Source of the DNA: an uncultured Eubacteriales bacterium
GTDB lineage: Bacteria > Bacillota > Clostridia > Christensenellales > Aristaeellaceae
Reading direction: 5' to 3'
NCBI GenBank assembly: GCA_902761755.1
Contig: CACWLP010000006.1
Location: 58,431-122,430, forward strand
DNA: 64,000 bases
This document shows positions 22,437 through 59,657 of the stretch, one piece after another. The notes beneath the pieces are model-generated. The model ran no database searches. It was not told the origin of the DNA and was given only the letters and a program-made list of their open reading frames with translations. Each line of letters starts with the position of its first letter. The stretch's first letter is position 1. The position numbers and the translations under genes are program-made.

Positions 22437-22474
22437 AACAATCCGGGGAAATACCATTTTCCCCGGATTGTTTC
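22437..22474. terminator. Terminator copy 1 (kdgK side) of duplicated terminator pair A
   Basis: A 38-bp block with a stem of about 15 bp (core CCGGGGAAA/TTTTCCCCGG) ending in GTTTC. It is identical base for base to 22717-22754, and the two copies flank element A. Confidence 0.85.
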
Positions 22475-22716
22475 AGGGTGTCGACAAAGTCGACACCCTG
22501 CCATCGAAAGCCCGCTGAAGCAGGCTTTCGATGGTTCGCCCCGCGCTTTCTCATGCGAGAAGCGCGGGTTTCGGACGGCAATCCAAGGATTGCTCGTCCT
22601 CAGTCCATCTTCGTCATACTGACCGTTCCTCGGACCGGCAAACCCGGTCCTGCGGATGGTTGATGAAGGGGCCGAAGCCCCTTCATACTACCCCAAAGCA
22701 CTTTGTCGACATCCTC
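22475..22716. repeat. Multi-hairpin element A inserted between two identical terminators
   Basis: 242 bp without a plausible gene, in the 388-bp gap between convergent kdgK and clpB. Ends are inverted repeats of about 17 bp (22474-22490 and 22700-22716, core TGTCGACAAAGT). In order: a perfect 12-bp hairpin with AAA loop (22474-22500), a CCATCGAAAGCC hairpin (22501-22534), a CCCGCGCTT hairpin (about 22540-22568), a GGACG hairpin (about 22573-22599), the GGACCGG hairpin (about 22632-22650) and TGAAGGGGC with CGAA loop (22664-22685). MITE-like in form, but with far longer flanking duplication than usual target-site repeats. Confidence 0.85.
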
Positions 22717-22754
22717 AACAATCCGGGGAAATACCATTTTCCCCGGATTGTTTC
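22717..22754. terminator. Terminator copy 2 (clpB side) of duplicated terminator pair A
   Basis: Identical 38-bp copy of 22437-22474, offset by exactly 280 bp. It is the first hairpin met by leftward transcripts from clpB, so each convergent gene keeps one working copy. Confidence 0.85.
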
Positions 22755-29838: not shown

Positions 29839-29870
29839 AAACCGCCGTCCCGGAAAAGTAACGGCGGTTT
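29839..29870. terminator. Terminator copy 1 (spo0A side) of duplicated terminator pair B
   Basis: Stem AAACCGCCGT (29839-29848) with ACGGCGGTTT (29861-29870), 12-nt loop. 30 of 32 bases equal those at 30121-30152; both differences are in the loop. Confidence 0.85.
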
Positions 29871-30120
29871 CAGACTATCGACAAAGTGCCTTAGGGTAGT
29901 ATGAAGGGGCCGCAGCCCCTTCATCAACCATCCGCAGGACCGGGTTCGCCGGTCCGAGGAGCGGTCCTTGACCGCTTCCTCTATCAATTTATGGCCGTAA
30001 AAAGAGCATCTCCGGGCATACTTGCTCGGAGATGCTTTTTTTACAATAAATTGATGTGTCGAAGGAAAGGACGGTTTTTCGGCCTTTCCTTCGCAGGGTG
30101 TCGACTTTGTCGACACCCTG
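29871..30120. repeat. Multi-hairpin element B, opposite orientation to A, between two near-identical terminators
   Basis: 250 bp in the gap between convergent spo0A and the 81-aa gene; no other gene lies in 29819-30166. It is an inverted homologue of element A: TCGACAAAGT end (about 29878-29887), TGAAGGGGC hairpin (29902-29923), the ATCCGCA-hairpin-GAGGA block (29929-29962) and a terminal perfect 12-bp hairpin with TTT loop (30094-30120), the reverse complement of A's first hairpin. The centre differs: a GAGCATCTCCG/CGGAGATGCT hairpin with a T run (about 30003-30042), bracketed by ATCAATTTAT/ATAAATTGAT, and a GAAGGAAAGG/CCTTTCCTTC hairpin (about 30061-30092). Confidence 0.85.
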
Positions 30121-30152
30121 AAACCGCCGTCCCGGAAACGGAACGGCGGTTT
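30121..30152. terminator. Terminator copy 2 of duplicated terminator pair B
   Basis: AAACCGCCGT (30121-30130) pairs with ACGGCGGTTT (30143-30152). It serves the leftward two-gene unit that ends at 30167 and lies 282 bp from copy 1. Confidence 0.85.
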
Positions 30153-52389: not shown

Positions 52390-52620
52390 AACGAGGCAAC
52401 CGGCGCGGCAGCGCGGTTGGCCGTCCTGCCGGCTTCCGAAGGAAAAGACGGCAGGCGTTATGATTGATTTAACGAGGCAACCGGCGCAAAGCGCGGTTGG
52501 CCGTCCTGCCGGCTCCCGAAGGGAAAGACGGCAGGCGTTATGATTGATTTAACGAGGCAACCGGCGCGAAGCGCGGTTGGCCGTCCTGCCGGTTCCCGAA
52601 GGGGAAGACGGCAGGCGTTA
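52390..52620 (+). repeat. Three-copy tandem structured repeat (about 80-bp unit) in tldD leader
   Basis: Units start at 52390, 52471 and 52551 (81, 80 and about 70 bp; the last lacks the trailing TGATTGATTT). Each unit has two hairpins: CAACCGGCGC with GCGCGGTTG around a 3-4-nt loop, and CCTGCCG with CGGCAGG around TTCCCGAAGGGGAA-like loops. Each unit begins AACGAGGC and closes GCAGGCGTTA, so its ends also pair. Substitutions between units fall mainly in loops. No coding is apparent. It fills the 303-bp gap 52342-52644. Confidence 0.85.
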
Positions 52621-52644
52621 AAAGAAAAGGAGGATCGTTTTTCT

Positions 52645-54042
52645 ATGCCTTTCTCTTCGTATCTCAACGGAAAACGGAAGGACTGCGCGGAGCTGGTGCA
52701 GGCCCTGGGCCGGTATTTCCCCTACGTCAGCATCCTGGGCACCGACGTGCGCAGCACGTCGGTCCGGGCGGACAAGCGCACCACCGCCGTCCAGGAAGGC
52801 AGGGGAGAATGTGGGTTCGTGGTGAAAATGAACGACGGGCGCGCATTTTTCGAGTATTCCCTGGACGATATTTCCGGCGATAAAGCCGCCCTTGCGGACC
52901 GCATCCGCGCCGCCGTGGCAACGGACGCGGCGCTCTCGGCGCGCATGATCGCCCCCGGCCCCATCGACGATACGCCCATGCAGCAGGATTTCCTCCGGGA
53001 AACGGATTTCACCGATTACAGCGACGCGGACCTGCTGAAAACATGCCAGGAGCTGGTGAAGGAAATGGGCGAAAAGGACCAGCGCGTCCTCAACGCCTTT
53101 GCCGTGCTGCAGTTCTTCACCTGCTCCAAGCTGTTCGTCACCAGAAACCGCCATCTCAGCCAGCATTACGGCTGGGCCAACGGCCATCTGATCGTGATGT
53201 TCGGCGGGGACAAAATGGTGCAGGCCCGGCACACCGAGGGCGCGGACAAGCTGAGCGAAATCATCTCCGCCCTGCGCGCCCATACCGCCAGCGTCGTTGA
53301 CCTGGCCGAGCACCTCACCCATGCCACCCCCATCGAGCCCGGCATTTACGACGTGATCACCGATCCCTCCATCACCGGCCTCATCGCCCACGAAGCCTTC
53401 GGCCACGGGGTGGAAATGGATCAGTTCGTCAAGGACCGCGCCCTGGCCAAGCACTGCATGGGCCAGTACGTGGCCTCCCCCATTTCCAACATGCACGACG
53501 GAGCGGCGGCCACCCATTCCGTAGCCTCCTACTTCTTCGACGACGACGGCGTGCTGGCCCACGATACCCAGATCATCAAGGATGGCATCCTCACCGCCGG
53601 CCTGTCCGATCTGGCCAGCGCCGCCCAGCTGGGCGCCGCCCCCACCGGCAACGGCCGCCGGGATTCCTACAAGCGCAAGGCCTACGCCCGCATGACCAAC
53701 ACCTTCTTTGAGCCGGGCAAGGATAAGCTGGAGGATATGATCGCCTCCGTGAAGCACGGCTACATGCTCTTTGAAACCAACAACGGCATGGAGGACCCGA
53801 AAAACTGGCAGATCCAGTGCACCGCGGAATACGGCATCGAGATCGTGGACGGCAAGCTCACCGATCATTACGTGTCCCCCGTGGTGATGAGCGGCTTCGT
53901 GCCCGATCTGCTCAAGTCCATTTCCATGATCTCCGATCAGAGCACGGTCATCGGCTCCGGCATGTGCGGCAAGGGCTACAAGGAATGGGTGCGGGTGGCC
54001 GACGGCGGGCCGCACCTGAAAGTGAGGGTGAAGCTGGGATGA
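52645..54042 (+). CDS. tldD: TldD family metalloprotease
   Basis: 465 aa from ATG 52645 (AAAGGAGG upstream). The zinc motif HEAFGH (His249, Glu250, His254) sits in GLIAHEAFGHGVEMDQFVKDRA, characteristic of TldD. The C-terminal part has the PmbA/TldD beta-sandwich (FEPGKDKLEDMIASVKHGYML, GSGMCGKGYKEWVRVADGGPHLKV). TldD with TldE degrades unfolded peptides and matures some microcins. It overlaps tldE by 4 bp. Confidence 0.92.
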   Translation: MPFSSYLNGKRKDCAELVQALGRYFPYVSILGTDVRSTSVRADKRTTAVQEGRGECGFVVKMNDGRAFFEYSLDDISGDKAALADRIRAAVATDAALSARMIAPGPIDDTPMQQDFLRETDFTDYSDADLLKTCQELVKEMGEKDQRVLNAFAVLQFFTCSKLFVTRNRHLSQHYGWANGHLIVMFGGDKMVQARHTEGADKLSEIISALRAHTASVVDLAEHLTHATPIEPGIYDVITDPSITGLIAHEAFGHGVEMDQFVKDRALAKHCMGQYVASPISNMHDGAAATHSVASYFFDDDGVLAHDTQIIKDGILTAGLSDLASAAQLGAAPTGNGRRDSYKRKAYARMTNTFFEPGKDKLEDMIASVKHGYMLFETNNGMEDPKNWQIQCTAEYGIEIVDGKLTDHYVSPVVMSGFVPDLLKSISMISDQSTVIGSGMCGKGYKEWVRVADGGPHLKVRVKLG

Positions 54043-59582: not shown

Positions 59583-59657
59583 GCGCGCCCTGGGGGATTC
59601 GAACCCACGACCTTTTGATTCGTAGTCAAACACTCTATCCAGCTGAGCTAAGGGCGC
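59581..59657 (-). tRNA. tRNA-Arg(ACG)
   Basis: 77 nt including an encoded CCA at 59581-59583. On the minus strand: acceptor GCGCCCT/AGGGCGC, D-arm TTAGCTCAGCTGGATAGAG, anticodon stem TTTGA/TCAAA with loop CTACGAA (anticodon ACG), T-arm GGTTCGAATCC. The A at position 34 should be converted to inosine, reading CGU/CGC/CGA. Confidence 0.95.

Follow-up and report, generated by a model that had tools for sequence, protein, structure and literature searches.

The closest described systems are IS1272, which is placed in the IS1182 family, and TnSha1. Newly inserted IS1272 replaced the inverted repeats of its target and generated no duplication, which was attributed to joining at a cruciform's 3' feet (Wan 2017, PMC5678879). 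Joining at the 5' feet, which would duplicate the stem-loop at both ends of the element, was drawn in the same paper as an alternative, hypothetical pathway (pathway b of Fig 13). The same kind of target was reported for TnSha1 together with IS1272, including some terminators confirmed by RNA-seq, and partial loss of the hairpin was described (Furi 2016, PMC4923244). As these accounts present them, IS1272 and TnSha1 resemble the element described below in the transposase family proposed for it (IS1182), in terminal repeats of about 16 bp and in a hairpin target that has no fixed sequence and is often a terminator; they differ in that the stem-loop is deleted without duplication, whereas here the whole stem-loop is duplicated. 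Bacterial MITEs in general (for a review, PMC10969869) are similarly short and repeated, with terminal repeats and a flanking duplication and without a transposase, but the duplication here is a whole hairpin of 18-37 bp and the element is a chain of near-perfect palindromes. REP/BIME palindromes (PMC2817692) are also intergenic, palindromic and present in many copies, but they are not known to have a flanking copy of a host terminator. Our search of the open-licence literature recovered IS1272 as a hairpin-targeting element and did not recover whole-hairpin duplication as an observed outcome. The transposases associated with REP/BIME palindromes are of the tyrosine (HUH) type. For IS1182, the direct repeats given in ISfinder span 0-60 bp, so that long duplications may already be catalogued without having been read as whole hairpins. 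Hairpin-targeting IS1182 elements and MITEs are both already known.

The element lies between the convergent spo0A and an 81-aa gene in the window, which is the whole 64,000-nucleotide stretch analyzed here, and its features are given in Table 1 along with those of a sister element. Judged by its sequence, 29871-30120 is a non-autonomous element (MITE) between two copies of one terminator-type hairpin. It is short and multi-copy, its terminal inverted repeats are CAGGGTGTCGACAAAG and CAGACTATCGACAAAG, and its left-to-right orientation is that of the minus strand. The two window copies have four overlapping ORFs, none with a Pfam match, and both target duplications and sites without the element were found (own genome, genus loci, relatives). 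The initial annotation had the two 32-bp terminator-type hairpins sharing 30 of 32 bases with both differences in the loop; we obtained the same result, and both mismatches fall inside the region closed by the 10-bp outer stem. The differences appear to alter pairing within the hairpin and could also have been produced by one palindrome-specific repair event; from the mismatches, it is possible that this copy is older than the one at 22437-22753. At another copy in the same genome (C33:1387-1618), the letters of the hairpin copies match better by eye when one copy is inverted. Hairpin-templated repair may have edited the flanking copies at both C33:1387-1618 and 29839-30152.

Table 1. Coordinates of the two elements and their flanking hairpins in the window
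Feature	Position	Strand	Remarks
Terminator hairpin, target duplication copy 1	29839..29870	.	30/32 vs copy 2; A-rich tract outside, left
MITE, 250 bp, hairpin chain	29871..30120	-	homologues in own genome and genus; ssDNA fold z -14.7
Right terminal repeat CAGACTATCGACAAAG, outer end first	29871..29886	+	14/16 vs IS1182-family end
Left end: terminal repeat and its own inverted copy, 27-nt palindrome CAGGGTGTCGACAAAGTCGACACCCTG	30094..30120	-	paired changes among variants
Terminator hairpin, target duplication copy 2	30121..30152	.	30/32 vs copy 1; T-rich tract outside, right
Terminator hairpin of sister element, copy 1	22437..22473	.	37/37
Sister MITE, 243 bp, other centre	22474..22716	+	homologous ends
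Terminator hairpin of sister element, copy 2	22717..22753	.	37/37

The insert had also been described as a reverse-oriented homologue, at both ends, of a stretch at 22475-22716 with a differing centre. Our comparison with 22474-22716 bears this out: in reverse orientation, an arm of 98 nt at one end is 89% complementary and an arm of 60 nt at the other end is 82% complementary, and the centres differ. The copies at the sister locus are indeed identical, as had been claimed, but the limits given for it (22437-22754) needed correction to those in Table 1, with the element starting at 22474; the C at this position is most plausibly the element's first base and not part of the duplication. When all of the window was scanned for direct repeats of a hairpin at a spacing of 120-420 bp, the two MITE loci were returned together with a tandem array at 52410 that is unrelated to them, and a 30-base end motif occurred twice in the window with up to 3 mismatches, compared to 0.00 expected (100 shuffles). 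This array (52410-52649) has three 80-bp units in tandem, all of which contain a hairpin, and lies directly ahead of an apparent gene start.

The initial annotation read the two loci as one kind of element inserted twice and bracketed by a duplicated terminator, and it proposed a genome-wide search for paired terminators with inserts. The genome is a 2.2-Mb draft of 46 contigs that is 73% complete, in which blast with the first element as the query gave 59 partial matches; after reading the flanks, we count about 30 copies in several subfamilies, most of which start with the palindrome CAGGGTGTCGACAAAGTCGACACCCTG or a variant and finish with CTTTGTCGACAGTCTG or a variant. By our count, 18 of the 92 contig ends of the draft fall inside copies, as expected for near-identical repeats. 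We compared the flanks of 23 left ends and 22 right ends, all against all, a set that leaves out fragments with no recognizable end (e.g., C24:8613 and C8:45676) and that had been cleared of left palindromes read in mirror image and of one spurious match to a right end (C5). The same hairpin was present on both sides in 10 of the 11 copies with both ends on one contig, with identities of 17/22, 19/20, 22/22, 23/24, 25/25, 26/28, 27/27, 27/27, 30/32 and 37/37, in agreement with the proposed reading. The eleventh copy (C8:19770-20019) has a hairpin on the right only, and in C22 and C4:123991 the left end is lost and the hairpin is absent on one side. Nine left ends belong to copies cut by contig ends, and six of them each pair with one right end on another contig via the same hairpin (19/19, 23/24, 25/27, 26/26, 27/28 and 30/30), in further agreement. 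The left ends at C10, C2 and C6:4474 have no recognizable right end, the repeated hairpin being visible by eye at C6:4474. The flanking hairpin differs from locus to locus. The doubled hairpins suggest six contig joins in this draft, and such hairpins can bridge broken draft assemblies.

We further analyzed what is duplicated, using 43 duplications (16 paired in the own genome, 21 from the genus and 6 from IS elements). A hairpin with both feet within 2 nt spans 38 of the 43, compared to a mean of 0.5 and a maximum of 3 in shuffles; by set, foot-to-foot spans were found in 16/16 own-genome duplications, which like five of the six IS repeats were unfiltered, and in 16/21 genus duplications, which had been pre-filtered for hairpins. 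The duplications range from 18 to 37 bp in length. Hairpins with a stem score of at least 8 adjoin 17 of the 23 left ends and 16 of the 22 right ends, compared to 77 of 5000 random window positions, and palindromic targets are a trait reported for some members of the IS1182 family. In a crude test, A-runs were found ahead of the left hairpin in 16/22 and T-runs after the right hairpin in only 10/20, so that not every target is a demonstrated terminator; many targets, not all, look like intrinsic terminators. The A- and T-tracts sit outside the doubled hairpins. Loss of the stem-loop without duplication, the IS1272 type of product, is not what these copies display, the stem-loop being present twice in 10 of 11 two-ended copies.

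The distribution among relatives was evaluated with the second element, which found matches at E <=0.001 in 28 of 28 other genomes of the genus, in 4 of 31 genomes from other genera of the family and in 1 of 40 from other families of the order. Viral contigs, searched with one pattern, and plasmids, searched with one distant blastn, gave no match. Among 60 loci from genus relatives, 21 contain direct repeats of a hairpin at a spacing of 120-420 bp, compared to 0 of 21 same-genus control loci (64,760 bp). The count of 21 is hairpin-filtered; unfiltered direct repeats of at least 18 bp occur at 24 of the 60 loci, three of them weak hairpins. The remaining 39 loci gave no hairpin repeat, and several of these are partial copies or stop at a contig end. 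Two observations had been named in advance as speaking against the insertion reading, namely that most terminators of the genome are duplicated without inserts and that inserts never share ends. Neither was made, since the control loci lack such repeats at this spacing and the insert ends are common across copies. These data also bear on the proposal that slippage or recombination had doubled the terminator before the insert was there, the insert being a later or chance event. Palindromes are unstable and two loci alone could be local accidents, but the duplication adjoins the element ends at locus after locus and the controls have no hairpin direct repeats, so this order of events is already contradicted and we give it almost no credence.

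We attempted to find sites without the element in relatives. We read the surroundings of the 81-aa gene in 22 genomes, the own genome among them, and found the spo0A end in 5 of the 22; among those loci the convergent pair is kept only in the own genome and in L200, where the intergenic region holds by eye one terminator of other sequence and no MITE. What follows spo0A in L204, L208 and L211 is other sequence. At 22 loci read by eye downstream of clpB, relatives mostly have one terminator of other sequence, and MITE-like sequence was seen there in G019. The spo0A/81-aa and clpB loci of relatives are not exact empty sites, and we therefore searched across the genus with the joined flanks of five insertions. 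Two insertion sites have the terminator single in a relative. At the first, the terminator AAGACCGGTTCCGACCGGTCTT is doubled around the MITE in G006, whereas G003 has a lone copy with a loop 1 base shorter, the same T-tract and the same downstream region but a different upstream region. G026 has both flanks of this site and a single, partly decayed hairpin without the MITE, with about 120 bp of other sequence upstream of the hairpin. At the second site, another terminator is doubled in G014 and one similar hairpin follows the same upstream gene in G007, where the downstream sequence differs. At a third site, four relatives have neither the MITE nor the hairpin, and an insert of another kind is present in G014 and G020. 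At the terminator occupied by a MITE in G010 (L196), two other species have a different insert of about 100 bp (L285 in G020 and L310 in G014); it starts with a sequence like CTTCCCCTTGAGGGGAAG and also lies between copies of the hairpin of that site. One locus (L141) has what looks like a MITE inside the hairpin of another MITE, which is suggestive only.

The element itself folds as a chain of hairpins (ssDNA -81.6 kcal/mol, z -14.7). In an alignment of 17 copies (A2), chosen for their flanking repeats and position, at least one sequence was changed on both sides in 40 of 75 predicted pairs. With six doubtful pairs left out, the 1162 pair cells comprised 1095 Watson-Crick, 18 G-U and 49 other combinations. 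For the left palindrome, 5 of 12 pairs were changed on both sides and the covariation was reached by 0 of 500 shuffles, in a sample biased by the choice of its 10 left ends for palindromicity. A search of the whole window against Rfam at the gathering score returned only a tRNA (59584-59657), leaving the MITE without a family. The strong fold and the changes on both sides of pairs would suit a structured regulatory RNA or DNA element held between two working terminators, and not a transposon. Such an element would not be expected to have a different flanking hairpin at each locus or targets that are single in relatives; G-U cells are not in excess over other non-pairs, there is no Rfam family, and the duplications already contradict this explanation, which we regard as very improbable. 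As G-U pairs are not in excess, the pattern suggests palindromes that are maintained as DNA, whether through selection or through hairpin-templated repair, more than it suggests selection on an RNA.

We searched for a transposase that might move the element. No IS1182-type transposase (PF13751, NF033551) was found on any contig of the own 73%-complete draft. Matches to IS1182-family transposases were present in 15 of 29 genus genomes and exceeded the curated cut-off in two, and in both of these strong hits the flanking direct repeats are whole hairpins, of 22 and 33 bp. One such transposase, searched in named genomes, gave 30 loci, mostly in MAGs labelled Clostridia or Clostridiales, two of which are the two strong genus elements again. 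Five of the transposases scored 419-443 bits against NF033551 (cut-off 270) and contain Pfam DUF772 and DDE_Tnp_1_6. A hairpin with a stem score of at least 6 adjoins 27 of 27 IS ends, compared to 308 of 2000 random positions, and 25 of 27 at a score of at least 8; the tested ends come from 19 of the 30 loci and are those that were found by pattern and had 25 bp or more of flanking sequence. For L224, this test put the right end at an incorrect site further inside; its true duplication was seen separately. The same hairpin flanks both sides in 6 of 10 two-sided IS copies (L220, L221, L222, L224, L227 and L232+L238). L232 and L238 (JAFUHB010000247.1) form one IS1182 copy split by another insertion, and its outer hairpins are still the same. 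The other four copies (L225, L228, L230 and L231) have a different hairpin on each side, which recombination between copies or chimeric assembly would explain, or which may reflect another outcome of insertion. By eye, a hairpin followed by T's lies just inside the left end of the L220-L231 elements and could keep transcription that starts outside from reaching the transposase gene.

The L220-L231 elements resemble the MITE in their ends, their hairpin targets and the duplication of the whole hairpin, and differ from it in carrying a transposase, in their length of about 1.5 kb and in an interior that looks unrelated. Six MITE ends agree with the best of 19 IS ends at 12-15 of 16 bases, a level equalled by 0-8 of 20,000 shuffles, so the MITE has IS1182-like ends. 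In L228-L231, moreover, the left terminal repeat is by eye the 5' arm of a hairpin, the same design as the palindromic left end of the MITE. These similarities have to be weighed against the possibility that a mobile element with whole-hairpin duplication was moved by an enzyme outside the IS1182 family, such as another hairpin-reading transposase or integrase, perhaps lost from the draft. An own genome that yielded no IS1182 transposase and an interior unrelated to the IS elements would fit such an enzyme; the end similarity, the shared left-end hairpin design and the same targets and duplications in the IS1182 elements of the genus argue against it, and we consider it unlikely.

We consider it highly probable that 29871-30120 is a MITE moved in trans by a DDE transposase of the IS1182 family that targets the shape of a hairpin, joins at its 5' foot and thereby has the whole hairpin copied. 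This reading draws on the many loci with different targets, the near foot-to-foot duplications and the single-copy targets in relatives, together with IS1182-like ends and IS1182 relatives that use the same target type and duplicate it. The transposase would pick a terminator-type hairpin by its shape and join the two 3' ends of the element at the 5' foot of the hairpin, one per strand, at a stage when the palindrome is probably extruded as a cruciform. When the long staggered gap is filled, the whole hairpin would be copied, so that identical hairpins come to lie on both sides of the insertion and the A- and T-tracts outside them. Since the hairpin would be copied whole, spo0A and the 81-aa gene would each retain a hairpin and its tract beyond the MITE, and termination would probably be preserved for both convergent genes.

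The product observed is the one predicted for the 5'-foot pathway, from which we infer that in this lineage IS1182-type transposases act at the 5' foot and mobilize the MITE in trans. The broader proposal is that attack at the 5' foot, and not at the 3' foot, turned the destructive replacement of IS1272 into duplication in this transposase lineage and allowed the genus to be seeded with MITEs that are strings of near-perfect palindromes; we judge it about evenly balanced. Hairpin extrusion is perhaps part of how such MITEs move. If the proposal is true, this is a transposon that aims at the hairpins of gene ends and yet leaves a complete terminator to both neighbours. The loci described here provide natural evidence for an outcome that had hitherto only been drawn, in which integration is guided by structure and the target hairpin is duplicated in full. 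Set beside IS1272, which deletes its target, they raise the testable question of what sets attack at the 5' foot or the 3' foot within one transposase family, and they highlight how a mobile element might settle in a functional site and leave it intact.
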